A stretch of 29,986 bases of DNA from a virus: IMG/VR virus record IMGVR_UViG_3300020438_000174, positions 1 to 29,986 of that record; one strand, 5' to 3'. Within the stretch, counting starts at the first letter, position 1. Each line of letters starts with the position of its first letter. Below, one piece after another: positions 1 through 16,613 of this stretch. The notes below the pieces were generated by a model. That model saw only the letters and a list, made by a program, of their open reading frames with translations, was not told where the DNA came from and did not search any database. Position numbers and translations under genes: made by a program.

Positions 1-3000
1 GTTGCTCTTATTGTGGCGGCTACACTTGTACCCTTATCATGAATTTCTAAGAAACCACTACCACTTATATTACCAACTACTGTTAAATCTTCTACTGCAT
101 TTGTGGTCCCGATACCGACATTACCAGTTGTTCCATCAAGAGTTAAATCAGATACAAATCCAGCTCCACCTCCACCTCTATAACTTTCAAAAGTCTGAGT
201 TCCACCATCTGCAACTCTTATTCTTCTTAAATCAGCATTATCAGCTGCTTGGTCTGGGTACATTAGAAATTCTACAGCACCACCATCATTAGAGGCTTGT
301 AATCTCATAGTAGCATTAGTATCTTCTATTCTAAGTTTTATTCCAGCACTTGAAGCTACTCCGATGCCGACATTTCCGCTATTGTCAATTCTTAACCTTT
401 CACTCCAACTTATATCATTTCCTGCAGTTCCACTTCCAGCTGTATAAAATCTATGTTCACCATTAAGTTGTTGATACATACTAGCTTCATCAGTTACTAT
501 ATATTCCCAAGAATCATCTGCATCTATATGGGAATTATGATTTAATGCTAAAAATCCACTAGCTGATGTTCCTGAATTTGATGTTAGAGTTGTTAAGCCA
601 CCTAGGGTTAAATTTCTAAAATTTGTGTGTGTAGCAACAGGAGATACTCCGATGCCGGCATTGTTATTAAATATCGCATTGCCTGTGGATAAAACTGAAC
701 CAAACGAACCGGTTGAGGTTACTGAACCACTTATTTTTGCATTAGCAGCTGTCGCATTAAAATTTCCTGTTGTATTAACATCACTCGTAAAGCTTGTATA
801 ACTTGAGTTAACTGTTACAGGATTAGAACCATCACCTATAGTCATCGCAAAACTACCTTGATGCTGAACGCTATTTGTGTATATATGTTTAGTAGAGCTA
901 ACTACTAAATTTCCTGTTTGAATTGTTGTGTTACCACTCTTATCTATTGTGAATCTTTCTGCAATAGTTCCAGCATTCATAGTGTAAAATTTTAATGCTG
1001 ATGAATTATGAGCATTATTATTAGCTCCAACAATTAAAGCTCTTCCAGTAACACTTGTGGTATTGTTTAAATTTTGAAATTCTATCTTACCAAATTCTGC
1101 ATTATTACTACTTGCATTTTTATTTTGTAATTCTATAACACCACTTGTTGATGGACTTTGAACACTTAGTGTAGTTGCACCACTTGTTCCAATTGCATTT
1201 GGACTTGTGGTCCCGATGCCGACATTACCTGAAGTATCTATAGTTAATCTTGTACTATTAGATATTATATTATCATCACCGATTTTAAATTTATTAGAAT
1301 CACTATTATCAATACCAACTGACCACCATTTTTCACCAGTCAATTTAAATGCTAACGCAGCATCACCTGTACCATCTTGTTCAAGTATTGCCTGATAAGA
1401 ATCCGTATTGTTGTCATAAATATTTAAATTAGCACTTGGACTTGTGGTCCCGATACCGACAAGCCCTGCCTTCAATGTCATCACAGGAGCAGCAGCAGCG
1501 TGAATTCTCCACTCATCTCCATCATGTTTATATTCTAATTGACCTCTATATGCTTGGTCACCAGTTGTACCATCAGCCATCAGTATAGATGATATTCCAT
1601 CTGTGTTTGTAGCAATTGTCAAATAATTAACAGAAGCTTGATATGTTGCCAATGGAGAGTTGTAGTAAGAGCCTGGACTTATCGTTCCGATACCAACATC
1701 CGTATTTTGAAAATAAGATTTACCCTCATCCATAGTAAGTGATCCATTACTCGAACCACCATAACCATTTAATACAGTTTTAATATCCTCACCACCATTA
1801 TTTAAAACAAAATCTGATGCTGCGCTTATTTCATATTGATTCATACCAAGAACATTACCATTCCAAGTTAAATCTGTATTAGCAGCTGCATTTGAGCCAT
1901 CGCCAGTTAATACTCTGTTGTTTCCATTATTAGAAATAGTGACTCCACCACCACCACCAGCACCAAATCCACTAGAGGCTGCAGATGAAGAAACTGCAGT
2001 TGTGAAGTTATCCCCACCAACCATAATATGACCAAAAGAACCGGTTGATAAGGAAGAACCACTTACTCCAGTTGGAGTAATTTGAATTGATTTACCACCA
2101 GCAATTAATGCTAATGTATTTGTTGTAGAATATCCAATTCCTGTATCAGTATCACTTTTGTTGGGTCTGAGATTAGGAAGTGAGTTAGTAGGAGTATCTG
2201 TTGTAATTGCAAACCTATTACTTGCATTTGCTTGAATAGCTGCACCGTCAATTCCGTAAGTATGAGTACCAGCAATAGCAACTCTAATGACATCATCAGC
2301 TGATTCATAAAATCCAGTATCACCATCGCCAAATGATAAAGTTGGACCAGATGGTCTATTCTCTTGAGATAATTTTAATTGACTACCACTAACAAATAAA
2401 GAACCTGTGAAGCGGTGTATGTCTGCACTATCATCACCAAATACTGTCGAACCACTTTTTGCAGCTATAACCATATTTGTAACAGAAGAACTAACTATCA
2501 ATTCTTGTGCTGTTAATGTTCCGTTTACGGTTAAATTATTTGCCATCGTTACATTACCTGTAGCTCTAGCTATACTTAAAGCAGTAGAAGTAGTACCATA
2601 TGAATAAAAGTGGAAATTATCAGAACTATCAACACCAAAATTCCATAGTGCTGAACCAGCATTACTTGCTAAATGAATCTTTGTACCAGCGGTAGCGTCA
2701 CCATAATGTTCTTGTGTATACCCACCAGTATCTCCCATAAATCTCGCTCTATCTGTAAATCTACTAGTTCCAGTTACATCTAATCCAAAGGCGGGAGCTT
2801 TTTGATTAATACCTATCTGATTATTTTCATTTACATATATTCCATAACCATCATCTGGATTATTGTCTATACCAAAATAAGCAGTATCACTTGCGTTGAG
2901 TATTAATCCCATATAAGCAGCTTTACTACTATGACCAACTCTTATTATTGAATGCTCTCCATTAGAATTTATTGCATTTTCAAAATTAGCAATAGTTTCG

Positions 3001-4754
3001 TCTGATGATGTAGTTGATTTAACAACTAATTTTAATGCGGGATTTGTATCTCCGATGCCGACATTTTCGTGTAAAATTATAGCAGTAGGTTTAATTTCAA
3101 GACCAGTTCCACCACTAGCCATATATAATCTGTAACTATCTGTATCAGGATCAAGATTTGTATAAACACTTTTAGCAGTACCGCTATCATTTTCAGCAGT
3201 ATATTGTGTAAGTAAATTTGCTCCATGAGTACTAGTATATAGTTGAAATTTTACTGCTGGAGCAGTTCCAAATCCAATATTACCAGTTGAGCCCTCTAAG
3301 TAAAAAGCATTAGGATTTGCATTTGACTCAATTCTAAAATCTAAATCTGCACCACCTTCGTTAAATACGGTTTCAACAGTACCAAGTCTTAGCGTCTCTC
3401 TTGAATTAGTTACATCATAAAAACTAAATACAGAAGTTGCATAAATTCGCCAATCTTGATTGTCGTTAGTATCTTCAAAGAAAATATTTGGCTCTTGAGC
3501 TTTTAAATGTAATAAAGACTCACCATCTATTGTGGTTGTTCCCACACCAAGTTTACCTGATATGTGACCTCTACCAAACGAACCAGTTGAAGAGTGAGAA
3601 CCACTTATCTTATAATTAGCTATTGGAAATTCAGTTACTGTCGCACTTATTTTTACTCTATAACTACCACCAGTATTTATGAATGCAAAATTACTAGCAT
3701 GACTATATCCAATTTCTGCTTCGTATCTTGAAACACCACTTGTTCCATCTGCAAAAGCTATTGTTCCATTACTTGAAGTATCTGTTCGTATTGTAATTCC
3801 ATGACCACCTGAAGTTCCACCAACCACTAAGTTATCGTATGTAGAATAATAACTATCAGGATCAGTTATTCCGATGCCGACATTTCCTCCACCGAGAATA
3901 GTTAATCTTGCAGTATTGTCAGTTTGAAGTCTTAAATCTCTAGCAGATGTATTATTACCAATTTTTACACCAGTATCATCCAATTTAAAATATCCACCGT
4001 AACTTGATGTAGAGGTATCCTCAGAACTTATAGTTATGTAACCATTTCCACCACTATCATTTACAGCCATCGCACCTTTGACAACCAACTTACTTGAAGG
4101 ACTTGTTTCTCCGATGCCGACATTTTGACTTGCATCTATGGTTATTGCATCTGCACCATTTCCACTTCTTAATTTCAATATACCTGAAGCGTGTTGTGTA
4201 CCTAACTTCATTGTTTTGGTGTTATATTCGTAGAATACATTTGCACCATTTAAATCGCTTGTAGAACCAAAAATTATAGATGATGTATGTCCAGAAGATT
4301 CACCAGCTAATATTGACATTCCAGCATCATTATTGTTCCTAATGACAAATTCATCACCATCACTATCAGGTGTTCCACTAACAGTTCCATTAGCACCTTG
4401 AATTTCAAGTTTAGCAGCAGGACTTGTGGTGCCGATGCCTAATTTATCAGCAATAAAACCTTGAGCAAACGAACCAGTTGAGGTTACTGAACCACTTACA
4501 CCACCATTAATACTCAAATCTCCACCAGCACCAGTGTATGTTAATCCACTTTCAACATCTGCGGTGGTTGAACCACCATAAGTCACTAAACCATTTGAGG
4601 TTGAACCATTAAAAGATATACCACCAGCAGCAGCTGTTGTAACTCTACCAGCGATTGATGATGAAAAATTATCTCTTATAGTTTCGTCATTTATTATTAG
4701 TCTTGAAACGTGAGCATTAGAACCCGAATGTATTAATTTTTTCCAACTTGGCAT
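1..4754 (-). CDS. Giant repeat-rich tail fibre/adhesin, 3' end outside window
   Basis: The frame is open from the ATG at 4754-4752 to the left edge, giving at least 1584 codons without a stop. I confirmed the reading frame at about a dozen anchor points. The start follows a strong AGAAGGAG site. The N-terminus, M-P-S-W-K-K, resembles that of the 603-residue fibre upstream. The body holds 13 copies of a degenerate GNVGIGTTSPxxKL repeat, spaced irregularly, and four SGSxxSTGSFG cassettes. One SGSTVFGDDSADIHRFTGS cassette lies at about 2403-2459. I know such repeats from marine phage tail fibres, many of which end in an intramolecular-chaperone (peptidase S74) domain; if this one does, that domain lies beyond the window. 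No enzyme motif is visible. The likely role is a trimeric receptor-binding or side fibre. Confidence 0.85.
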   Translation of the reverse strand, partial: MPSWKKLIHSGSNAHVSRLIINDETIRDNFSSSIAGRVTTAAAGGISFNGSTSNGLVTYGGSTTADVESGLTYTGAGGDLSINGGVSGSVTSTGSFAQGFIADKLGIGTTSPAAKLEIQGANGTVSGTPDSDGDEFVIRNNNDAGMSILAGESSGHTSSIIFGSTSDLNGANVFYEYNTKTMKLGTQHASGILKLRSGNGADAITIDASQNVGIGETSPSSKLVVKGAMAVNDSGGNGYITISSEDTSTSSYGGYFKLDDTGVKIGNNTSARDLRLQTDNTARLTILGGGNVGIGITDPDSYYSTYDNLVVGGTSGGHGITIRTDTSSNGTIAFADGTSGVSRYEAEIGYSHASNFAFINTGGSYRVKISATVTEFPIANYKISGSHSSTGSFGRGHISGKLGVGTTTIDGESLLHLKAQEPNIFFEDTNDNQDWRIYATSVFSFYDVTNSRETLRLGTVETVFNEGGADLDFRIESNANPNAFYLEGSTGNIGFGTAPAVKFQLYTSTHGANLLTQYTAENDSGTAKSVYTNLDPDTDSYRLYMASGGTGLEIKPTAIILHENVGIGDTNPALKLVVKSTTSSDETIANFENAINSNGEHSIIRVGHSSKAAYMGLILNASDTAYFGIDNNPDDGYGIYVNENNQIGINQKAPAFGLDVTGTSRFTDRARFMGDTGGYTQEHYGDATAGTKIHLASNAGSALWNFGVDSSDNFHFYSYGTTSTALSIARATGNVTMANNLTVNGTLTAQELIVSSSVTNMVIAAKSGSTVFGDDSADIHRFTGSLFVSGSQLKLSQENRPSGPTLSFGDGDTGFYESADDVIRVAIAGTHTYGIDGAAIQANASNRFAITTDTPTNSLPNLRPNKSDTDTGIGYSTTNTLALIAGGKSIQITPTGVSGSSLSTGSFGHIMVGGDNFTTAVSSSAASSGFGAGGGGGVTISNNGNNRVLTGDGSNAAANTDLTWNGNVLGMNQYEISAASDFVLNNGGEDIKTVLNGYGGSSNGSLTMDEGKSYFQNTDVGIGTISPGSYYNSPLATYQASVNYLTIATNTDGISSILMADGTTGDQAYRGQLEYKHDGDEWRIHAAAAPVMTLKAGLVGIGTTSPSANLNIYDNNTDSYQAILEQDGTGDAALAFKLTGEKWWSVGIDNSDSNKFKIGDDNIISNSTRLTIDTSGNVGIGTTSPNAIGTSGATTLSVQSPSTSGVIELQNKNASSNNAEFGKIEFQNLNNTTSVTGRALIVGANNNAHNSSALKFYTMNAGTIAERFTIDKSGNTTIQTGNLVVSSTKHIYTNSVQHQGSFAMTIGDGSNPVTVNSSYTSFTSDVNTTGNFNATAANAKISGSVTSTGSFGSVLSTGNAIFNNNAGIGVSPVATHTNFRNLTLGGLTTLTSNSGTSASGFLALNHNSHIDADDSWEYIVTDEASMYQQLNGEHRFYTAGSGTAGNDISWSERLRIDNSGNVGIGVASSAGIKLRIEDTNATMRLQASNDGGAVEFLMYPDQAADNADLRRIRVADGGTQTFESYRGGGGAGFVSDLTLDGTTGNVGIGTTNAVEDLTVVGNISGSGFLEIHDKGTSVAATIRA
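95..4448 (-). repeat. Thirteen degenerate GNVGIGTTSP-type protein repeats
   Basis: From N- to C-terminus the cores are LGIGTTSP, VGIGETSP, VGIGITDP, LGVGTTT, IGFGTAP, VGIGDTNP, IGINQKAP, VGIGTISP, VGIGTTSP, VGIGTTSP, AGIGVSP, VGIGVASS and VGIGTTNA. On the plus strand the best conserved copies read gtcccgatgccgacatt. Spacing runs from about 120 to over 1000 nt, so this is not a regular tandem array. The two copies nearest 1200 and 1450 keep almost identical DNA, including the ggacttgtggtcccgat stretch, which suggests recent duplication or gene conversion. Confidence 0.85.
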
Positions 4755-4785
4755 TTATTATCTCCTTCTGTGGTTGGTTACTCTT

Positions 4786-4809
4786 CCGAGCCCACTTCCC
4801 TCACGGGCC
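4786..4809. other. GC-rich element in the gap before the giant fibre gene
   Basis: This 24-nt stretch is 18/24 G+C in a genome that is roughly one third GC. It lies between the stop of the 75-residue gene and the ribosome binding site of the giant fibre gene. On the transcribed strand, GCCC and GGGC can pair around an 11-nt purine-rich loop, but the stem is short. No T-run follows, so it is not a standard terminator. Function unknown. Confidence 0.5.
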
Positions 4810-4813
4810 AACA

Positions 4814-5041
4814 TTAAGATTGTTTTTCTGTCATGTGCTTTACCAATAAATTATATTCTTTCTGTAAAGCATTTGTTACTTTTATTACTTTTTGCAATTC
4901 ACTACCTTTGTGTCTTGCATTTGCTATCACTTGCATTAAAAATTCTATATCATCCAATTCAAAAGGATGAACATAAACCTTTATTTTTTTTCCAAGGGTA
5001 GGATCAACATTAATCCCACCCTTGAAATTGATTTTAGCCAT
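4814..5041 (-). CDS. Small conserved-looking hypothetical protein between fibre genes
   Basis: This 75-residue soluble protein sits between two fibre genes, 19 nt downstream of the 603-residue fibre. The start ATG at 5041 follows AAGGAG. The N-terminus, about residues 1-25, is basic and glycine-containing. The rest, from about residue 28, looks helical with charged and hydrophobic alternation (FELDDIEFLMQVIANARH, then QKVIKVTNALQKEYNLLVKH) and could form a short coiled coil. There is no signal peptide or membrane segment. I do not recognise the family. Its position would suit a small fibre-assembly or attachment factor, but that is only inference from context. Confidence 0.7.
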   Translation of the reverse strand: MAKINFKGGINVDPTLGKKIKVYVHPFELDDIEFLMQVIANARHKGSELQKVIKVTNALQKEYNLLVKHMTEKQS

Positions 5042-5060
5042 AGAGACTCCTTATTCAGAT

Positions 5061-6872
5061 TTAACTACCTGAGTAAATCCAAATATCACCATTGTTGTTG
5101 AGAGCCATCTCACCAACACCATATTCATCATCTGAATCCGTTGGAGCATCATCATCACCTAACGCTTTAGCAGTAACAACATACTCTAATGCTGTAACAG
5201 CAGTAGCATCATGTGCAATTGCTTTCGCAACAGCCCATCTATTATCACCATTATCATGATAAAGAGCAGCGCCAGTTCCTGTAGTTGCACCATGTTGTAC
5301 AATCAATCCACCATCTACGTTTGAACCATGTGAACCACTTGCAGCATATATAAATGCGTCTTTAACAGCCAAGTTCGTAGTAGATAAAGTTGTTGTTGTA
5401 CCATTAACAGTTAAATCTCCACTTAGAGTTAAACTAGTAATTGACAAATCAGGTGAAACTTTAACACCAGAACCACCATTTGTTAGAGTACTACCATCTA
5501 AGTTTAATGCTACAGCATCAGCAGCTACCGAGATACCGTTACCAGCACCTACCGCCATTACTCCTGATGAGTCCGTTAAACCAGCACCAGCTAATCCGGT
5601 TGCAACATTATCATTAACCATACCATCTTCGACAGCATTAGCGGCTATTGTTGTATTACCATTTGCAGTAGTAGTTATATCACCGCCAAGTATTCCAAAC
5701 ACACCACCAGCTAAATTCGCAACAGATAGTTTCTTTTCAGTTCCACTATCGGAAACTAAAAGCATATCACTTGTTGCTGGAGCTGCAGCTAATTCAGTTA
5801 ATCCATCAACATCTTGATTAACACCAGTTAGAGCAGAACCATCACCAGTAAATGTACCATTAATTGTACTACCTGAAATGTTACCCCATACATGAAGTCC
5901 ACCAGCATTTACAGGAGATGCAGTACCGATACCAACAGCACCATTGTATTTAATGACAGCTTTTTGATCACCACCGCCTGAAGCACCAACAAGTAATCTA
6001 AGTTCTCCAGAGCCACCATCATCACTATCAGCTTGAATAGTTGCTATTCCACCGTCTGTGGTTTTAAATGTAGTCCAATTACCGTCACTTGAATCTTCGA
6101 TTTTAAGAGATGGTGTCGCACCTGTAATAGTCAAATCATCACCACTATGAGTAAGACCACTTTCTACAGTTGCTTCTCCCGCAGCATTAAATGTTAGTAC
6201 ACCATTTGCAGTAGTTCCACTCATTACAGGAATTGTATTCGCAGCATATGCAGCACCTACAGCAATCGCTGGTGCTATAGATCCAGAATCAAAATGTGCA
6301 TAACGATTAGAATCATTAGCTCTAACCATTACCGAACCAAATGATCCAGTAGATGTAGATGAACCACTTATTCTACCTTGTGCAGCATTCATTACTATGT
6401 GACTAGTAGTTTCTAATTTTTGAAAATCTACATTATCAGATGCACCCAATCCTAAAGATGTTCTAGCAGTAGCACCACTTTCAGCAACAAATGCTGTACC
6501 ACTTCCTACTATAATATTACCATCTGCAGCAGACATTCCTGATATATTTTGTAATTTACTACTATATGCCTGAACATCAGTCCCTATTGTTAAACCTAAA
6601 GATGTTCTAGCAGTAGCACCACTTTCTAAAACAAAGTTTGAACCATTACCAACAATAATATTACTGTCTGTGGGTGTCATCGCAGCAATATCTGCTAACT
6701 GAGCATCCTGTGCTTGAACATCTGTACCTATTACCAGCCCTAAATTAGTTCTAGCGGCCGCTGCGGTAGAAGCACCCGTTCCACCACTAGCTAAAGGTAA
6801 ATCTGTATCTAGAGCCAACGAACTTAATTCTGCTGAAGAGCCGCTGACTACTACTTTTTTCCAACTTGCCAT
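5061..6872 (-). CDS. Tail fibre protein with LGL-type repeats, 603 aa
   Basis: The N-terminus, MASWKKVVVSGSSAELSSL, is matched by the start of the giant fibre gene and probably forms a shared docking segment. Next comes LASGGTGAS followed by two full 48-residue repeats and a partial third (RTxLGLxIGTDVQ ... ESGATA). An SGSSTSTGSFG cassette follows at about residue 170. The C-terminal third contains LTVNGTTTTLSTTNLAVKD, a motif I know from marine phage fibre and structural proteins, then a segment with VDGGLIVQHG and ending DIWIYSGS. There is no transmembrane segment or enzyme signature. The start has GGGAGA 9-10 nt upstream. It is a likely virion fibre; the exact appendage is not assignable from sequence. 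Confidence 0.85.
   Translation of the reverse strand: MASWKKVVVSGSSAELSSLALDTDLPLASGGTGASTAAAARTNLGLVIGTDVQAQDAQLADIAAMTPTDSNIIVGNGSNFVLESGATARTSLGLTIGTDVQAYSSKLQNISGMSAADGNIIVGSGTAFVAESGATARTSLGLGASDNVDFQKLETTSHIVMNAAQGRISGSSTSTGSFGSVMVRANDSNRYAHFDSGSIAPAIAVGAAYAANTIPVMSGTTANGVLTFNAAGEATVESGLTHSGDDLTITGATPSLKIEDSSDGNWTTFKTTDGGIATIQADSDDGGSGELRLLVGASGGGDQKAVIKYNGAVGIGTASPVNAGGLHVWGNISGSTINGTFTGDGSALTGVNQDVDGLTELAAAPATSDMLLVSDSGTEKKLSVANLAGGVFGILGGDITTTANGNTTIAANAVEDGMVNDNVATGLAGAGLTDSSGVMAVGAGNGISVAADAVALNLDGSTLTNGGSGVKVSPDLSITSLTLSGDLTVNGTTTTLSTTNLAVKDAFIYAASGSHGSNVDGGLIVQHGATTGTGAALYHDNGDNRWAVAKAIAHDATAVTALEYVVTAKALGDDDAPTDSDDEYGVGEMALNNNGDIWIYSGS
6440..6770 (-). repeat. 48-residue tandem repeat in the 603-aa fibre
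   Basis: There are two complete 144-nt units and the beginning of a third. Each unit starts with ARTxLGL and ends with ESGATA. The plus-strand sequence gatgttctagcagtagcacc is identical between two copies, so they are recently duplicated or homogenised. Similar LASGGTGA/ARTNLGL repeats are typical of phage tail fibres. Confidence 0.8.
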
Positions 6873-6978
6873 TATATTTCTCCCAAACTAAAATCATTAA
6901 TTAATCATTTATAAGATATAATCTTACTTAACTATAAATATATCAATAGTAAATTTTAGTTCATTATTTTGTTATTGT
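6873..6978 (-). promoter_or_regulatory. Leader region of the 603-aa fibre gene
   Basis: This is a 106-nt noncoding gap. On the transcribed strand it carries TATAAATG (6906-6913 in plus coordinates), close to the T4 late promoter consensus TATAAATA and about 35 nt before the start codon. A small AAGAT-TAT-ATCTT inverted repeat lies at 6913-6925. The strong GGGAGA ribosome binding site follows. It may be a late promoter, but one octamer in AT-rich DNA is weak evidence. Confidence 0.35.
6933..6940 (+). promoter_or_regulatory. TATAAATA motif, antisense to genes
   Basis: Exact T4 late promoter octamer in an intergenic gap, but oriented against the surrounding genes. One of six such sites in this window. 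Confidence 0.3.
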
Positions 6979-8934
6979 TTATTCGAATCCCAAATAAAAA
7001 TCATCCTCACCTGGGTTTCCACTTCCGGAGTAAAAGAAGCCACCAGCCTCTGGTGCTGGTGCAGTAGCCTGCGCTCCAAGTACCATTAGTCCCTTACCCA
7101 CTTTCATAACAAGAGCATTACTCTCATCATAAACACTTAAAAGGTTCGCCGCATTGGTAGCATTAAAGTTAAAAGACGAACCTGTAAATTCACTTATAGA
7201 TGCAGTTGATGTTAATTTCAAACCTGCAAATTGCGGTTCTGATGTAGTACTCAATGGAGTATCCAATGTAGTAATATTATCAGCAACCGATTTTTTAATT
7301 TCTGTACCACCTATTGATATGGTATTAGCGTTTACCTCTAATCTCCCAAATGATGCCGTTGAGTGATAAGAGCCACTTAAATTTCCAGCAAACTTAATTC
7401 TTCCAAATGATCCAGTTGAAGTTACCGAACCGGATATATTTCCGCTTGCAGTTACTGGTCCAACCAAATTTATTATCGGTGATGTTATTATAGTTGATGT
7501 TGTGGTATCAATAGCAGTTGTCGCATTATCAATATCAATATTAGAATCGATATTAACTTGATTGCCACCTTCAACTTTAAACTCACCATCTGTGGTATTA
7601 ATTGTTACTTGATCTAATGTGGTTGCCCCATCCACATCCAATGTTAAAGAAATATTGGTTGCATCTAAATTCGTAGTTCCATCTACATCTAAATCATCTG
7701 TGATTGCTACATTACCATCTGCGACTTCTAATGCGTTTGTGCCATTGGCTCCAACAATTACTACTTTATTACCCGATTCATCATATAAAAATGATTTACC
7801 AGTTGTAGCTCCAAAGAATTTTACATCGTGTCCAGTATCATCAACACCGACAGTAACTGTTCCATCAATTTGTGTTGCTCCATCTATATCAACTGCATCT
7901 AAATTGGTAGTACCATCTACATCTAAGTCACCATTAAAATCTACATTCCCATCAGCTCTTAAAGTACCTGTCGTTGAAATATTTCCACTTGCACTAATAT
8001 GTGATGAGCCCGTTATCGCTCCAACTAAACTTATTATCGGCGAAGTTATAGTTGAAGAGGTAGTTGATGAAATTGTAGAAGTTGTTCCATTTACCGCTAA
8101 AGTTCCATCTATATCTGTATTATCTAAGTTAGCAGTTCCATTTATATCTATATTACCTTCAATATCCACATTATTTTGAACGATTAAATCACCATCATTT
8201 AAATTAAATGAACCACTTTGGTTAATTGAACCAGTAAAGCTATGAGTATCGTCAATTGTATCTCCAAATAAAGTTGATCCAGAACTAAATGAAGTTGTCA
8301 TATGTGTGACAGAAGAACTTACTATAAAAGTTTTTGCAACTAACATACCCTCAACAACTACATTACCCTTAGAGGTTACGTTTACAAAAGTTGGAGAATC
8401 TGTAGTTTTTACATTTTGATTCATTTCATAAAGTTCGTTAGCACCTTGTCCTGTATTTACAGCAACGAATGTAGGACTTGCATCTGTTTTTACGCTTTGG
8501 TTTACATTATTTTCTAAATTAATTATATCTATGTTTTGACTACTTTGAACTGTTTGTAAATTATCAATATTTGTTTGTTCAGAAGTCATTGTAGTTTCAA
8601 GAGTTGTAGTTCTTGTTGCAAGACCACCACTAGCTTCTGCAAAAGCACCACTAATAGCAGCTGGATTACCACCTGCGCCTGATCCAGGCCATGTAAAATT
8701 AGGAAATGTGATAGTAGTATTAAACGAATCATCAGTTATTTTACTTACTCTTACTAATTTATTTTCACTATCTATATAAATTATTTGACCATGTTCTAAC
8801 CTCTGAGGAGTAGTTAATAAACTAGCAGTAAGGGAGCTTGATGCTATAGTTCTATAAGCACCAGAAACTTTATCTACATCTGTTAGTTTAATATTACCCG
8901 CTACGGTAAGGTCTTGTCCGAATGTTAAAGCCAT
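6979..8934 (-). CDS. Tail fibre/structural repeat protein, 651 aa
   Basis: The protein starts MALTFGQDLTVAGNIKL. Around residues 115-150 is a coiled-coil segment (TRTTTLETTM, then SEQTNIDNLQ) also present in the 1431-residue protein. SGSTLFGDTIDDTHSFTGS follows at about residue 220. The middle is rich in DVDGTTNLD repeats and holds TVGVDDTGHDVKFFGAT, a module I associate with marine phage tail proteins, followed by KSFLYDESGNKV. TITSPIISLVG and IITSPIINLVG are duplicated. Two SGSxxST(G/A)SFG cassettes lie near residues 500-530. The C-terminus ends with a glycine/aspartate stretch (GSGNPGEDDFYLGFE). The ribosome binding site AGGAGA overlaps the upstream TAG stop, suggesting coupled translation. 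It is probably a fibre or baseplate-attached appendage. Confidence 0.85.
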   Translation of the reverse strand: MALTFGQDLTVAGNIKLTDVDKVSGAYRTIASSSLTASLLTTPQRLEHGQIIYIDSENKLVRVSKITDDSFNTTITFPNFTWPGSGAGGNPAAISGAFAEASGGLATRTTTLETTMTSEQTNIDNLQTVQSSQNIDIINLENNVNQSVKTDASPTFVAVNTGQGANELYEMNQNVKTTDSPTFVNVTSKGNVVVEGMLVAKTFIVSSSVTHMTTSFSSGSTLFGDTIDDTHSFTGSINQSGSFNLNDGDLIVQNNVDIEGNIDINGTANLDNTDIDGTLAVNGTTSTISSTTSSTITSPIISLVGAITGSSHISASGNISTTGTLRADGNVDFNGDLDVDGTTNLDAVDIDGATQIDGTVTVGVDDTGHDVKFFGATTGKSFLYDESGNKVVIVGANGTNALEVADGNVAITDDLDVDGTTNLDATNISLTLDVDGATTLDQVTINTTDGEFKVEGGNQVNIDSNIDIDNATTAIDTTTSTIITSPIINLVGPVTASGNISGSVTSTGSFGRIKFAGNLSGSYHSTASFGRLEVNANTISIGGTEIKKSVADNITTLDTPLSTTSEPQFAGLKLTSTASISEFTGSSFNFNATNAANLLSVYDESNALVMKVGKGLMVLGAQATAPAPEAGGFFYSGSGNPGEDDFYLGFE

Positions 8935-8944
8935 TTAAGTTCTC

Positions 8945-11900
8945 CTATACTTCACTTGATGGTGCTGAACCACTTGATGATAATAAATGATAATATTGTG
9001 AACCACCAGTATTTGGACCCAATCCATGAATCATTCCAAATCTTTCAGTTCCTCTGATTTTTACTCCAGCATTTGTTCCAAAATAATGTAATCCTGCTCC
9101 TTCTACAGCATCTGATGAAGCATTATCGTTCCATACAACATACTCACCTGCTGGATGAGGTGAGTTCATTTCATTACCTAAAGTCAATGGTAATGGATTC
9201 ATAGCAGATGATGATGGGAATACTACTATCCACGAATGACCATTATTACTGTTTCCACTTAAATCTACGTTTCCAAATTGTCTCCATACATTTTCGCTTC
9301 CGTTTTTATCTAATCGATAACTACTCTGAGAAGCCATTAATGTTACTGTCGCAGTTTCTCCATAGGATGATGTGAATCCTATACCAATATTTCCAGCTTT
9401 AAAATGTCCTAATAAAGAACCAGAATTTACGCTGGTATCCGTACCGTCACTATCGCCCAATATTCCAAGCGAATTAGCTGCGTTCATTACACCCATTCTA
9501 GCAGTTTGTTTATATAAATATATCATTGGTTTCACGGTAACATTACCGCTTGTAGCATTAGAAGTATGAAATCCATGATTATCCTTTACAGTCACATTAT
9601 ATGAATATGCCGTTGAACTGCCTGAAATATCTTGGTTAGCAGTAATTATCATAGAAGTACCTGATAAACTTGCGCTAAATAAATTTCCATTTGTTCCACC
9701 AAAAGCAAAAGTATCGTAATTTACAGTATCACCTTCTGTATCAGAAAAACTAGCGGATGCAATAAATGAACCCGAAACTGCATTTTCAGAAGTTACAGTT
9801 GGTGATGTTGGATTTAATGTTATAACTGGAGGATTATTTTTAGCTACATTAATACTAATACTACCACTACCTATATTATTATATTGGTCTCTATAAGTTA
9901 TATTAGATGTTATAGGATTACCTGCATTAAATGTAAATGCTGAACCGCTGACATTTTGAGCCAATGATATAGCACCTGCATTTGAAATTGCTAACATAGC
10001 ATTTGAAGATGTAAATTGAGTTACTGCAGCACTTCCATAGTTAGGAGAATAAGTTACATTTAAATCTCCTTGAGTTCCAGTTCTACCATTTGAATTTGTT
10101 CTAATTAAATCATTTGTCGTAGCACTCTCTATTATATAAAATGTTCCATTCGTAGACATTGTACCAATAGGAGCTTGAGCAATAGATAGTATGTGATTTT
10201 TTACACTTGTGCTAAATCCTTGTACATCTTTGATAGATGATGTCATTCTATAATTAGTAGAACCATTTAAATTACTCGTTGGAACAATTTGATAAGTATC
10301 ACCAACTTTATTTGCCTGTAAATCTCCACTAGGATCAGTAAATACAAAAGATGAATGTCTCAATGCATCACCCTCATCATCTGAAAAAGATATAGTTGTA
10401 ATTACATTAGAAGGTCTGGCTAAGTTTGAATTTAAATTACCAGATGTATTAGTAAATGTAGTTGTTGGAGAAAAGTTTTGAGCAACATTTACTGTAATAT
10501 TTCCAGTGCCTATATTGTCATATTGGTCTCTGTAAGTTATTGTGCTTGTAATAGAATCACTGCTCGTAACAGATGAACCACTTAGTTGAAATCCTAATGA
10601 TAAAACACCACTATTATTAACTGCTATTTGAGCATTAGAAGATGTATAAGAAGCTACAGCCGCACTTCCATAATTAGGAGAGTAACTTACACTTAAAGTA
10701 GCATTACCACCACTTCTACCATTTGAGTTAGTTTTTAAGTTACTACCATTAGTAGCAGACTCAATTATAAAAGAAGTTGTATTTCCACCTAAAGTTCCTG
10801 TATCTGCAGCTGCTACAGTAAAACTATCACTTTCTGTAGTTGATCTGAATCCATGTTCATCTTGTATTGAAGATGTAAATCTATATAAGGTAGAACCACT
10901 TAAATTTGTTATAGGTCTTATCAAATAATTACCACCACTCTGTACTGCTTCTAATTGACCGCTAGGATCAGTAAATACTAAAGCGCCAGCATTAATACTA
11001 TCACCTTCTGTATCTGAAAAGGATATTGTAGATAGTGTAGCACTTGGGCGAGCTAAGTTAGAATTTTGATTACCACTAGTATCTGAGTATGCTATAGATG
11101 GAGAGTTATTTTTTGCGACATTTACAGAAAATGCTGATTGGGTAAATGTCCCAAAAGCATTACTAGCCGTCATACTTCCGATAATAGGATTACCAGCATC
11201 GAATGTAAATGCTGAACTACTAACATCAAAATTAACATCGACTCTACCATTGGAATCTACAGAAAATTTATTAGATGGGTTTACATTAAAAGTAACGGTT
11301 TCATTTGAATTAAAATCTGCTCTTGTTCCTGTTCTTCCATTACTATTAATTCTAATATTATCACCATCAGTAGCACTTTCTATTATATAAAATGGTCCAT
11401 TGTTAGTTAAAGTTGGTATCGCATCATCTTGAATATTTAAAGTAACTACTCCCGATGAACTAGCATTATTAAAATTATCTTTATATGTAGCATTATATTT
11501 ATATTGATTAAAAATATCACTATTTAAATATTGACCAGCTTTAAGTTGTATAACTCCGGCAGAAGTAACTTGAAATGGATCGTTAGAAATATCTGTTTGT
11601 GAAGCATTCGAACCTCCACTACCGCTTGTTAATGCTAAACCTGTAAATGTTACTGTGTCTCCTTCATTATCATTAGTAGAAAGTGTTCCTATAGTTTGTA
11701 CATTATTAGTAGAAGTTCCTAATCCGTGATTGGTATGACTTCCAATACTTTCATTTAAACTAAATGCTTGACTACCCATTGTAGGTGCTAAGTTATCTGT
11801 GACATTTATAAGTATAGGTAAGGTAGTTATATATCCGCTCGAAGATGGCGTATTCCCATAATGTTCATCTGATGCACTTACAAATAATTGATGAGAAGTA

Positions 11901-13240
11901 ATACTTTCATAATCAAAACTAGCAGTATTTGTTGTTATTATAATTCTTTTTCCACCAGAAACATTAGAGGTATTCATAGCAAATCTATTAGCAACACTTT
12001 GACTTAATGGACTTATCGTTAATGTATCTGATTCATCGTCTGTAATAAACATAGTCAAAATGGTAGTATTGTTAGTAGTATTTTCATTTACACTACCCGT
12101 ATTATTAGCTATAATAGAACCCGCAACACTCGTTGTTCTAAACTTAGGAGCAGTATTTGGAGTGACTCTGATAAAAACTGTAGCGGTAGTTTCAGTTATA
12201 GTATCAGATACTTTAATTGGAAAAGGATGTGCTAATTCACCATCACCTCTATTTTGTGTATTCATACTAGCAGTTGTAGCTACAACTGATGTTACTACTC
12301 CGCTACCACTGTGTATAGTAAAAAAATTATCTGTGTAACTATCTTGTTTAGCAAAAGATAATTCACCTGGCTCAGCTTCTGTATCAGAAGCACTTACAGT
12401 TCCAATCGTAGTACCGCTAGCTACAAACTCATTTACAGTATGAGAAGTATTAGAAATTACAGGAGGCGCATTATCAAAAAATACCTTTTCTATAAATTGT
12501 GAGAGAGAACCAGTTGTTCCAGCATTATAGCTTGATGAAAATAAATTTGGAAATCCTGTATTTAAAACCCTTCTATTTCCATTAAATGATGCTTCTGCAG
12601 AAGTACCAATTCTACTAGCTAAACTAGCACTCACATCTGTAAAAGAACCGCTTATATTGCCAGATATTTGAAAGGAAGAACTTATTAAAGTATTTCCTAA
12701 TTCTGATTCAGCAGTTGTTAGTCTCGTTGAAAATGAACCACTATCCGTTTGTAAATTGTCAATATTGGTTTGTTCTGAGGCTAATGTTGACTGTAATGTG
12801 TCAATATTTGACTGTTCAGAAACCATAGTGGTTTCTAATGTGGTTGTTCTTGTTGAGAAAGAACCACTATCTGTTTGTAAAGCATTTACATTTGCTTCTT
12901 CTGTTGATAGTCTACTAGCAATACTAGAACTATCAGCAGTAAAAGAACCACTTATATTCGAAGCAATTTGTGCTGACGAACTTAAAGCTCCATTAAATAT
13001 ACCACTAAAAGTTTGAGCAGTTATACCACCAGTTACATCTATCGAATCTTTAAAATCAATCGCATTTCCACCAGTAACCGATTCAAAAGCATCAGCCCTA
13101 ACCGTTCCACTAGCAGTTATATTACCTTGTACATTTAAGTGACCAAATGATCCCGTACTTGATAAAGAACCACTTATATCACCCTTTTTAAGAATGATAT
13201 CATGATGCAGAATATTTTTGCCTATTACTTTTAAACTCAT
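8945..13240 (-). CDS. Large cadherin-like repeat fibre/adhesin, 1431 aa
   Basis: The N-terminus has SGSLSSTGSFG and NITASGTVRADAF, then a coiled coil at about residues 107-183 with repeats of SEQxNIDxLQ and TDSGSFSTR. From about residue 250 to 1235 there are cadherin-like or Ig-like beta-sandwich repeats with acidic turns typical of calcium-binding repeats: DTEAEPG, DDESD, DNEGD, DTEGD, DDEGD and DTEGD. Three long units start IIESAT and contain TNSNGRxG, each about 210 residues. The last 200 residues are different, with several Trp and Gly, and could be a receptor-binding tip. It has no signal peptide, as expected for a virion protein. The ATG lies 1 nt after the upstream TAA, implying coupled translation; the ribosome binding site is weak. 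Such domains in phage tails usually bind carbohydrate or cell-surface polymer; the target here is unknown. Confidence 0.85.
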   Translation of the reverse strand: MSLKVIGKNILHHDIILKKGDISGSLSSTGSFGHLNVQGNITASGTVRADAFESVTGGNAIDFKDSIDVTGGITAQTFSGIFNGALSSSAQIASNISGSFTADSSSIASRLSTEEANVNALQTDSGSFSTRTTTLETTMVSEQSNIDTLQSTLASEQTNIDNLQTDSGSFSTRLTTAESELGNTLISSSFQISGNISGSFTDVSASLASRIGTSAEASFNGNRRVLNTGFPNLFSSSYNAGTTGSLSQFIEKVFFDNAPPVISNTSHTVNEFVASGTTIGTVSASDTEAEPGELSFAKQDSYTDNFFTIHSGSGVVTSVVATTASMNTQNRGDGELAHPFPIKVSDTITETTATVFIRVTPNTAPKFRTTSVAGSIIANNTGSVNENTTNNTTILTMFITDDESDTLTISPLSQSVANRFAMNTSNVSGGKRIIITTNTASFDYESITSHQLFVSASDEHYGNTPSSSGYITTLPILINVTDNLAPTMGSQAFSLNESIGSHTNHGLGTSTNNVQTIGTLSTNDNEGDTVTFTGLALTSGSGGSNASQTDISNDPFQVTSAGVIQLKAGQYLNSDIFNQYKYNATYKDNFNNASSSGVVTLNIQDDAIPTLTNNGPFYIIESATDGDNIRINSNGRTGTRADFNSNETVTFNVNPSNKFSVDSNGRVDVNFDVSSSAFTFDAGNPIIGSMTASNAFGTFTQSAFSVNVAKNNSPSIAYSDTSGNQNSNLARPSATLSTISFSDTEGDSINAGALVFTDPSGQLEAVQSGGNYLIRPITNLSGSTLYRFTSSIQDEHGFRSTTESDSFTVAAADTGTLGGNTTSFIIESATNGSNLKTNSNGRSGGNATLSVSYSPNYGSAAVASYTSSNAQIAVNNSGVLSLGFQLSGSSVTSSDSITSTITYRDQYDNIGTGNITVNVAQNFSPTTTFTNTSGNLNSNLARPSNVITTISFSDDEGDALRHSSFVFTDPSGDLQANKVGDTYQIVPTSNLNGSTNYRMTSSIKDVQGFSTSVKNHILSIAQAPIGTMSTNGTFYIIESATTNDLIRTNSNGRTGTQGDLNVTYSPNYGSAAVTQFTSSNAMLAISNAGAISLAQNVSGSAFTFNAGNPITSNITYRDQYNNIGSGSISINVAKNNPPVITLNPTSPTVTSENAVSGSFIASASFSDTEGDTVNYDTFAFGGTNGNLFSASLSGTSMIITANQDISGSSTAYSYNVTVKDNHGFHTSNATSGNVTVKPMIYLYKQTARMGVMNAANSLGILGDSDGTDTSVNSGSLLGHFKAGNIGIGFTSSYGETATVTLMASQSSYRLDKNGSENVWRQFGNVDLSGNSNNGHSWIVVFPSSSAMNPLPLTLGNEMNSPHPAGEYVVWNDNASSDAVEGAGLHYFGTNAGVKIRGTERFGMIHGLGPNTGGSQYYHLLSSSGSAPSSEV
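9535..11405 (-). repeat. Three approx. 625-nt cadherin-like supermodules
   Basis: Units begin at about 11400, 10775 and 10140. Each encodes an IESAT...TNSNGRxG domain followed by a domain carrying the acidic SDxEGD turn. YRDQYxNIGxG is shared between units two and three, along with SYSPNYGSAAV-like and TYSPNYGSAAV strings. Units two and three are more alike than unit one. Boundaries are approximate. Confidence 0.75.
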
Positions 13241-13566: not shown

Positions 13567-13785
13567 TTACCCTCCGAATACTATTGACATAGCTGTTGCG
13601 TGGTCTACTACAGAAGTTCCTTTTTCAAAAACTCTCCCACTTGTTGTATTAATACTTCCGCTAGTTGTTAAAATATATTTACCAGCTGCTGGATTATCAC
13701 TACCCGAAATTATCATAGATCCAGTAACTGCTAATGAACCTGAAAATAAGTTTGAACTTAGTTGTTTGGCTTTAAGTTTTGCCAT
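13567..13785 (-). CDS. Small fibre-like structural protein, 72 aa
   Basis: The 72-residue sequence is basic at the N-terminus (MAKLKAKQLSS), then low in complexity with SGSLAVTGSMIISGS and TTSGSINTTSGR, the same SGS/TGS style as the neighbouring fibres. It ends SIVFGG. The ATG at 13785 has GGAGAAAGAGA upstream and overlaps the 3' end of the zinc-ribbon gene by 28 nt. The stop is directly followed by the next gene's start with a shared GGAGGG. It may be a short fibre segment or an attachment cap; no family with a known function is recognised. Confidence 0.7.
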   Translation of the reverse strand: MAKLKAKQLSSNLFSGSLAVTGSMIISGSDNPAAGKYILTTSGSINTTSGRVFEKGTSVVDHATAMSIVFGG

Positions 13786-14091: not shown

Positions 14092-14940
14092 TTATGAATT
14101 AAATTTACCGATAGCTACTATTTCATCTTGATTATTTAAATCATAACCAATAGATCCAGTATCTACAGTTAAAATCATAGTATTATTATTTTGTTGAATT
14201 GAAAGAGCATCTGGCTCTGCATTAAAACCATTTATAAAAAAATAAAAGTCGTGTTCGCTTGTGGGATTTACAACATCTCCTGATGAAGCAGTAACAGCAT
14301 TAAAATGCACAATTGTTTTATTTTGAATATTTCCTTTATGTACAAAACTCTTTCTTAAATATTCGTAATTATTTAAACTCTCTAAATAAGTTTTAGCAGC
14401 AAACTCTGTAACTAAGCTGCCGGTTCTTTCTAGTAGCTCTGGATTATTAGTAGTATGATTTACTTTACTTCCACCTTTAAAGGATAAATTTTGTGGAGAA
14501 AAAGAACCTGTTATTTTAGTTACGTCATCAGCAGTATCACCAAATTTTGTAGAACCACTTGCAAATATAGTAGACGCGCTACTACTACCAAATGTAAGTT
14601 GTTTTGATATTACAGTTCCATCAACGTGAAGGTTATTTATAGATGTAAAGTTTTCAGATATAGTTAAATTTGGTCCTATTGTACCAGAGCCTGATATACC
14701 ATGGTAATGTAATACAATATTACTTTCATCAGTACCAATAACTATATCTTGTGTACCGCTTGCAGAAACTTCTCCAAATGTAGGCGATGAATCAGGACCA
14801 ACTTCTTGTGGTATTTCAAATGTAACACTTACGGAATCGCTAGCATCCATAGACATTGTAGATTGAGCTTCTCCATTTAAACTACCTGTTATTCCTACCC
14901 CTATCTCAAAAGTTAAAGGTTTTTTAAATATTACTGTCAT
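14092..14940 (-). CDS. Fibre-like protein paralogous to the gp15 C-terminal extension
   Basis: The 282-residue protein has an N-terminal beta-rich part (about 1-115, including SSPTFGEVSASG) and a C-terminal module at 132-282. That module aligns along its whole length with residues 399-556 of the preceding gp15-like protein: FGDTADDVTKITGS matches FGDTSDDLHQFTGS, FNAVTASS matches FNAVTASA, DFYFFINGF matches DFIFFINGQ, and the proteins end DEIVAIGKFNS and DEIISFGKYNS. The gene begins 2 nt after the upstream TAA and has no strong ribosome binding site, so coupled translation is likely. It is probably a virion protein assembled next to the tail terminator or baseplate. The module has no function I can name. 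Confidence 0.8.
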   Translation of the reverse strand: MTVIFKKPLTFEIGVGITGSLNGEAQSTMSMDASDSVSVTFEIPQEVGPDSSPTFGEVSASGTQDIVIGTDESNIVLHYHGISGSGTIGPNLTISENFTSINNLHVDGTVISKQLTFGSSSASTIFASGSTKFGDTADDVTKITGSFSPQNLSFKGGSKVNHTTNNPELLERTGSLVTEFAAKTYLESLNNYEYLRKSFVHKGNIQNKTIVHFNAVTASSGDVVNPTSEHDFYFFINGFNAEPDALSIQQNNNTMILTVDTGSIGYDLNNQDEIVAIGKFNS

Positions 14941-14942
14941 TT

Positions 14943-16613
14943 TTAAGAATTATATTTACCGAAAGATATTATTTCATCATCATTTTCTAAACTATAACCT
15001 ATGGAATCGGTATCTACATTGAGATGTAAATTAGAACCATTTTGCTTTATACTTATAGCGTCATGTTCCATATATTGTCCATTGATAAAAAATATAAAAT
15101 CATTTTCGGTTGTTGCTGTGTAACCATCTGGAGCAGAAGCAGTTACAGCATTAAAACTAGCAGTATTTACACCTATAATTGTATTTGATATCTTATAATA
15201 ATTTTTTCTTATATATTGAATTATAGCAACATCTTGTGTGTAATCTGAACCTGTGTAGTTAGCTAAAGCATTTTCAGTTATTACTTTAGTTGTACTATTA
15301 GAAATTAAAGCTGGATTATTTTGAACTCCCGATACGGAATAACCACCTAATTTTAATGAACCGCTTATATCTACGCTTCCTGTAAACTGATGTAAATCAT
15401 CAGAAGTATCACCAAATCTATTAGAACCACTATTAAACATTATAGAAGATGTAACATATTCAGTATGATATTCTCCTACATTTAATGTACCTTTTATTTC
15501 AGCATTTCCAATAACAAACATATCGCTTGATACAGTCCAAGATCCTGTTACATGCATACTACCACTAATAAAATTATGACCATATGTAGTTGGATTACCA
15601 AGCACTAATTGAGTTGTTGATAATTTATTAAATACTACATTTGAAGTTGGTGCTACATTTTGACCTATTGATAATGTATTTGTTACAGGAGTAGAGCCAT
15701 CAAATCCTGTTGCTGAATCGGTTATGAAATTAACACCCGTCCCACCAGCAAATTTAAGAGGAAAAGTTGTTGATAAAGCAAAGTTAGGATTTACAGTGGG
15801 ATTAGATGATTTAGCCTTGGCTTTTTTTAATTCATCGGCTGTAAGAGTTGTGTCTAAACCAAAAATTATTCTTTTTGGAGTAAAATCTTTTTGAGTAGTT
15901 ACTTTATTGTTAAATTCTTCCGGAATTAAATAACCATTAAGAGTTACACTAAATGTAGTTTTAATAATTCTTTCTTGATTTACATTTATTTCACTAGCAT
16001 CCGTATAATTATCTATCTGTGTTCTGAATTTAAACTTACCATCTTCTCCCCAATAAGCACCTTCACTATAAACTAATTTTTCTACTATAGTGTTCATTTG
16101 TTCTGTATATGATGTCCATACAACAAAATCATAACTTAGCTTTACATAATCAGGAACTGCCACTTTATATAATTCTTTTGATTTATTTAATCCTTGCTGT
16201 ACTGCAAATTTATCATATCTATTTTGACTACTATATTTTTTTTGAAAACTATAAAATAGCTTTGGATCTTGTGGATTAAATTTATCCACAGACATATCAG
16301 TATCTTTTTCTATAGAAGTTCTTTTAAAAGCTATAAGAGGTATTACTAATTGTTTTTTATTATCATAAAGAAATCCATTTTTTTGTACTTGATTCCATCT
16401 TTCTGGATTAGCGTACATAATAGGAACTTTTATTAAAGATCCGTTTTCTAATACTTTTGGTTTGATAACATTATTAAAATAAAACATAATAGTAGAATCT
16501 ATATCCATTAATCCTATAGATATATTTTTTATTTTATCAGTATTTCTAGACCTTTCTAATCCACGATTTACAATCTTTCTTCTATTTCTTGGTAATGGTT
16601 TATCACGTGCCAT
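14943..16613 (-). CDS. gp15-like tail terminator/sheath stabiliser with fibre-like C-terminal extension
   Basis: Residues about 30-240 match the pattern of T4 gp15, the protein that caps the contractile tail and joins it to the head: SLIKVPIMYANPERW (T4 has KFIRVPITYASKEHF), then LSYDFVVWTSYTEQMNTIVE (T4 YELSIFTRYEDDMFQIVE), then FSVTLNGYLIP (T4 LTFEVNGWMYP). T4 gp15 is about 272 residues; this protein has 556. The extra C-terminal half carries FNKLSTTQLVLG, SGSMHVTGS, and at 399-556 a module shared with the next gene. The ATG overlaps the upstream stop as TAATG and has AGGAG upstream. The gp15 assignment of the N-terminal half is fairly secure; the role of the extension is unknown. Confidence 0.8.
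   Translation of the reverse strand: MARDKPLPRNRRKIVNRGLERSRNTDKIKNISIGLMDIDSTIMFYFNNVIKPKVLENGSLIKVPIMYANPERWNQVQKNGFLYDNKKQLVIPLIAFKRTSIEKDTDMSVDKFNPQDPKLFYSFQKKYSSQNRYDKFAVQQGLNKSKELYKVAVPDYVKLSYDFVVWTSYTEQMNTIVEKLVYSEGAYWGEDGKFKFRTQIDNYTDASEINVNQERIIKTTFSVTLNGYLIPEEFNNKVTTQKDFTPKRIIFGLDTTLTADELKKAKAKSSNPTVNPNFALSTTFPLKFAGGTGVNFITDSATGFDGSTPVTNTLSIGQNVAPTSNVVFNKLSTTQLVLGNPTTYGHNFISGSMHVTGSWTVSSDMFVIGNAEIKGTLNVGEYHTEYVTSSIMFNSGSNRFGDTSDDLHQFTGSVDISGSLKLGGYSVSGVQNNPALISNSTTKVITENALANYTGSDYTQDVAIIQYIRKNYYKISNTIIGVNTASFNAVTASAPDGYTATTENDFIFFINGQYMEHDAISIKQNGSNLHLNVDTDSIGYSLENDDEIISFGKYNS

Follow-up and report, generated by a model that had tools for sequence, protein, structure and literature searches.

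Change in host-recognition proteins is central to phage ecology, and the known routes to it include point mutation, retroelements, inversion and swaps of end domains; diversity-generating retroelements depend on a reverse transcriptase, and invertible fibre segments on an invertase. In the distal tail fibre locus of T-even phages, recombination between conserved motifs swaps the specificity of the adhesin gp38 (Tetart, Desplats and Krisch 1998, doi 10.1006/jmbi.1998.2047, as cited in PMC3797505, PMC6027323 and PMC10408124), in which conserved glycine repeats flank hypervariable regions (PMC6027323). Conserved DNA motifs of 20-95 bp adjacent to the receptor-binding domains of coliphage tailspikes have been proposed as recombination hotspots, and their presence was not correlated with recombination events (PMC10408124). 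In the C-terminal domain of T4-like fibritin, modular swapping is ancient and has now ceased (PMC3797505). Here we describe a cassette of 33 nucleotides (nt), encoding SGSxxST(G/A)SF(G/A), that recurs in the fibre genes of a 29,986-base virus record (IMG/VR IMGVR_UViG_3300020438_000174; this whole stretch is called the window) and of its relatives. We consider it probable (roughly 0.7), on comparison of the sequences, that the cassette is a recombination joint, or linker, between exchangeable fibre modules at which ordinary phage recombination acts.

One line of evidence for this reading is the position of breaks in homology between related viruses. Eighty relatives were fetched through an unrelated sheath-stabiliser-like gene and hence were not selected for the cassette; after removal of duplicates, and with the window added, this motif-blind set holds 103 cassette copies on 29 contigs. 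Contigs selected by the cassette pattern were added for the breakpoint work (394 copies, 91 contig pieces). Homology blocks came from unmasked blastn, and each had to have 100 nt or more of homology apart from the cassette; to obtain the expected number of block ends on a cassette, the cassette positions were rotated inside their own genes. Masked blastn was set aside, as masking the cassette can itself break alignments, and a test on the ends of high-scoring pairs at the protein level was uninformative, since tandem low-complexity repeats overwhelmed it. At 95% identity or more, 21 of the 32 block ends coincide with a cassette, against 2.2 expected and a maximum of 8 in 1000 rotations. The corresponding counts are 51 of 116 (8.3 expected) at 90% identity or more, 111 of 281 (18.4 expected) at 85% or more and 174 of 1466 (66 expected) at 75% or more; the stronger enrichment at recent breaks is what would be expected if older breaks had been blurred.

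The flanks of the cassettes give a similar picture. With a flank counted as shared at 85% identity or more, in non-redundant viruses, 84 of 93 cassette pairs share one side and 9 share both, whereas at control anchors 120-360 nt away the ratio of one-sided to two-sided pairs is 76:179. In the motif-blind loci alone (near-duplicate viruses included) cassettes give a ratio of 36:27, compared with 14:218 elsewhere. On the shared side the mean identity is about 0.9; at the edge of the cassette it drops to what unrelated pairs show. Excess identity is lost by about nt 15 of the cassette in pairs that share the left flank and gained from about nt 0 in pairs that share the right, which places the crossovers mostly inside the cassette. 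In pairs with unrelated flanks (identity about 0.3), the cassette itself, outside its two variable codons, is still about 0.87-0.90 identical. Four of the eight cassettes in the window (13142, 7345, 4464 and 2031) are themselves one-sided junctions with relatives.

Whole modules can be followed from one context to another. In sixteen locus pairs a module bounded by cassettes has different neighbours on both sides, four of these pairs being one event in L052 and L054 (L numbers are our handles for loci in related contigs). Examples are a module of 735 nt at 99.3% identity in L133 and L142, one of 336 nt at 99.3% in L108 and L132, one of 429 nt at 97.5% in L079 and L120 and a 342-nt module that is duplicated inside L052. 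Eleven further pairs, seven of them from the single locus L155, are swaps in which the neighbours are kept and the content between them differs (84 against 366 nt in L124 and L146). Twenty homologues of the small gene gF, including those of L044, L052, L056, L079 and L162, have constant ends and range from 72 to 732 amino acids (aa), with zero to three cassettes in between, the form in the window being the shortest. The segment behind the first cassette of the window gene gD has its counterpart in L090 (on the same contig as L056) behind a cassette of the gene in the gF slot, so that exchange crosses between different genes. Read in this way, the alignments make module exchange bounded by the cassette well supported.

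Since repeats are classic points of misassembly, and all cassette-bearing relatives are metagenomic, it could be argued that an assembler joined unrelated fibre pieces at short repeats. We regard this as very improbable: two datasets gave the same 16-kb assembly, with 18 cassettes, of the virus of L052 and L054, a second virus is consistent across nine contigs, and the exchanged modules have since diverged by up to 16%. A repeat of 33 nt is, moreover, shorter than common reads.

The cassette is also conserved as DNA, beyond what protein constraint accounts for. In the motif-blind set its wider consensus is G-N-(I/V)-SGS-(S/A)T-STGSFG-R-(V/L)-E, and this peptide is strongly conserved. Its codons are frozen to forms that are much less used in the rest of the same genes: TCG at Ser8 in 48% of copies against 5% elsewhere, ACC at Thr4 in 54% against 7% and AGT at Ser0 in 89% against 37%. 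Copies on different contigs agree in their codons at 63% of sites, against an expectation of 39%. The codon claim is confined to the motif-blind relatives, since the codon statistics of pattern-selected contigs are biased by how those contigs were found. Codon sharing above expectation implies that the synonymous sites of the cassette are not saturated. Pure convergence or protein constraint without any recombination, for which one might point to the wealth of Ser, Gly and Thr repeats in fibres and to the divergence of the copies in the window, is contradicted by these unsaturated codons together with the non-random breakpoints, and is to our minds scarcely credible.

The eight copies in the window lie on the minus strand of four fibre genes, gA to gD, and a repeat search of the window that was not anchored on the motif recovered the same family (D1, D2 and D8). 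An earlier note on this DNA had listed eight cassettes in four genes; all are present, with STASFG in the 7345 copy and STGSFA in the 4464 copy. It had also pointed to shared DNA strings, a claim that stands in part: codon sharing is 0.546 against 0.398 predicted from the codon usage of the same genes (simulation, p=0.0005), but pairwise identity over 33 nt spans 58-94%, and only the pair 4496/731 has an exact run above 16 nt (22 nt). Its suggestion that a new beta-rich repeat usually follows directly on the cassette found no confirmation, as both AlphaFold models around the cassette are of very low confidence (mean predicted local distance difference test scores of 52 and 31) and too poor to interpret.

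Beyond the window, the cassettes of each record lie on one strand and mostly in one cluster, with up to 26 copies in one contig. Viral contigs contain 65 stretches with an exact 32-nt form that allows two wild-card bases. Among 84,980 prokaryote genomes a slightly looser form was found in a single stretch, on a contig (L162, NHIV01000009.1) whose capsid, neck, sheath-stabiliser and fibre genes are those of a virus closely related to the window. This contig is filed under the bacterial metagenome-assembled genome 'bacterium TMED198' and appears to be phage DNA placed in a bacterial bin. A search of cultured phages for the cassette DNA gave no convincing match, only weak ones in unrelated genes, and a literature search for the motif strings found none.

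We propose the following account of how the exchange might take place. In these uncultured marine T4-like phages, a large fibre gene would consist of short constant ends and a string of unrelated modules, many of them running from directly behind one cassette to directly ahead of the following one. Ordinary phage recombination, in co-infected cells or between copies in one genome, may cross over inside the 33-nt cassette, and modules could thereby be moved, duplicated, lost or exchanged, whether inside one gene or across to a neighbouring one. As all copies of the cassette are read in the same frame, such a crossover gives an in-frame chimera, and repeated crossovers, by mixing cassette DNA across unrelated modules, would keep the synonymous codons alike. 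Cassette homology would guide the crossover in co-infected cells through a RecA/UvsX or annealing pathway, and the exchange of modules might alter host adsorption; the links to UvsX, gp46 and co-infection come from the general knowledge of T4. A RecA-family protein is encoded in two of seven large relative contigs, and five of six have an open frame, about 1,050 codons long, for an SbcC/gp46-type AAA_23 ATPase.

A dedicated enzyme acting on the cassette, whether in site-specific recombination or in a diversity-generating retroelement, would fit the many repeats of one short conserved site within adhesin genes. No reverse transcriptase (PF00078) was found in seven relative contigs of 94-165 kb, however, and no serine or tyrosine recombinase (PF00239, PF00589) in six large contigs, all of which may be incomplete; the cassettes, moreover, have a single orientation in each record and no long inverted symmetry, which also argues against it, and we give such an enzyme next to no credence. 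The earlier note had spoken of a diversification system without a reverse transcriptase. The lack of that enzyme holds in the seven contigs, but the word 'system' extrapolates, since the searches turned up no dedicated machinery.

It is likely, though unproven, that the crossovers are driven by homology of the cassette DNA, and several observations weigh against the proposed account. Cassettes at junctions come no nearer to the DNA consensus than those not used in this way (p=0.15 and 0.53), exact runs in most pairs of copies are only 12-13 nt (median), and the breakpoint counts are of pairs, not of independent events. In a survey of recurrent five-residue strings, those of the cassette were the commonest and had the highest codon sharing (a figure inflated by the pattern-selected contigs), and other recurrent peptide strings were likewise often close to breaks. 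The suggestion of the earlier note that the cassette could promote recombination accordingly fares unevenly, with breakpoints concentrated on the cassette and unsaturated synonymous sites in its favour, and the missing link between junction use and DNA consensus, along with the divergence of most copies in the window, against it.

These points could be accommodated if recombination happened anywhere, by illegitimate or microhomology-based events, and only junctions at the SGSxxSTGSFG linker gave a foldable trimeric fibre, so that the cassette would mark the surviving chimeras. The strong conservation of the peptide and the independence of junction use from the DNA consensus would follow, and a second motif, VGIGTTSP, behaves as a joint too, though a weaker one, with 15 homology ends where 5.1 are expected at 85% identity or more, and borders the segment at 314-657 that the window has in common with L135. 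Such protein-level filtering alone does not account for rare codons common to unrelated contexts (0.63 against 0.39 expected), nor for crossovers that lie inside the cassette instead of scattered around it, and as the whole explanation we hold it unlikely; selection for chimeras joined at a tolerant protein linker could nevertheless have a part in where breakpoints are placed.

If the cassette is indeed a joint at which ordinary recombination acts, it appears to let blocks be added, removed and traded at many places and between different genes. It would then predict the sites of fibre recombination in natural populations, and may serve as a sequence tag for locating exchangeable modules in metagenomes. 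More tentatively, one codon-frozen 33-nt joint spread across neighbouring fibre genes of many marine T4-like phages may amount to a distributed, combinatorial diversification of fibres, kept partly for the in-frame exchange of blocks between unrelated phages: a community-wide standard without dedicated enzymes. We see this as possible, though short of probable.

The genes of the window lie on its minus strand in a T4-like order (terminase, portal, protease, capsid, neck-like and sheath-stabiliser genes, then the fibre cluster), and the order of terminase, portal, protease and capsid matches that of Flavobacterium phage immuto. By this order, by its gp23-like capsid protein (PHROG 138, 1.7e-70) and by its gp15-like sheath stabiliser (PF16724, 6e-8), the phage is a member of the T4 superfamily. 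Phages with related capsids infect Flavobacterium and Microcystis.

Table 1. Fibre genes, cassette copies and a shared segment in the window
Feature	Position	Strand	Remarks
gA	3..4754	(-)	large fibre gene, four cassettes, truncated by contig end; PHROG 9942 tail fiber protein, 1.8e-10
gA segment	314..657	(-)	91.3% identity to L135 10102-10443; upstream break at VGIG-like site about 40 nt past the 699-731 cassette
Cassette SGSVTSTGSFG in gA	699..731	(-)	94% identity to 4464-4496 copy over 33 nt, 22-nt exact run
Cassette SGSSLSTGSFG in gA	2031..2063	(-)	one-sided junction vs L061, L133, L142: right flank 0.74-0.85, left 0.35-0.45
Cassette SGSHSSTGSFG in gA	3573..3605	(-)	
Cassette SGSVTSTGSFA in gA	4464..4496	(-)	one-sided junction vs L135, L159: right flank 0.71-0.76, left 0.33-0.36
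gB	5061..6872	(-)	fibre gene, one cassette; PHROG 24210 tail fiber protein, 1.1e-11
Cassette SGSSTSTGSFG in gB	6336..6368	(-)	
gC	6979..8934	(-)	fibre-like gene by repeats common to other fibre genes, no PHROG family matched; two cassettes 57 nt apart
Cassette SGSYHSTASFG in gC	7345..7377	(-)	one-sided junction vs L100: right flank 0.73, left 0.32
Cassette SGSVTSTGSFG in gC	7402..7434	(-)	
gD	8945..13240	(-)	large fibre-cluster gene; cassette at residue 23, cadherin-like repeats after; PF00028 cadherin 1.6e-9
Cassette in gD	13142..13174	(-)	22 residues after start; one-sided junction vs L090 (different gene there): right flank 0.76, left 0.32
gF	13567..13785	(-)	72-aa gene without cassette; basis is comparison of 20 homologues

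Several other repeats were seen in these genes. VGIGTTSP recurs in the window at 91-127, 345-374, 1195-1231, 3853-3889, 4095-4126 and 4414-4450, in GC-rich codons (GTC GGC ATC) that are rare in the rest of these AT-rich genes. A protein block of the approximate form SSSVT..SGSTxFGDTxDDxHxFTGS, with codons near background, is shared by the sheath-stabiliser-like gene (14092-14940), gH (14943-16613), gA and gC. The repeats inside gD, spaced at 618-633 nt, and its Pfam cadherin match are unusual in a gene of a phage fibre cluster. Very long low-complexity runs (e.g., SGTSGTSG) occur within cassette-bearing fibre genes of L044 (12410-20521), L045 (14378-16867) and L124.

Set beside the systems outlined at the start, the cassette resembles the T-even gp38, as far as the literature consulted describes it, in having short conserved motifs around hypervariable segments of a T4-superfamily adhesin, which inter-motif recombination swaps. 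By the same accounts, the gp38 motifs are glycine-rich and lie in one small adhesin gene of enterobacterial phages, whereas the present motif is rich in Ser, Thr and Gly, has frozen codons, occurs in up to 26 copies per contig across several large neighbouring genes and bounds whole modules of about 100-700 nt. Coliphage tailspikes likewise have short conserved DNA beside exchangeable receptor-binding parts, although their motifs flank one domain, whereas here breakpoints map to the motif and the motif recurs many times within genes. Fibritin offers another case of module exchange in a fibre protein of T4-like phages; unlike that swapping, the exchange described here is recent, with blocks up to 99% identical. 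Retroelements and invertible segments differ in their enzymes, neither a reverse transcriptase nor an invertase having been found in the large relatives. What appears to extend the known forms of motif exchange is the combination of one motif in many copies across several genes, with breakpoints that map to the motif itself.

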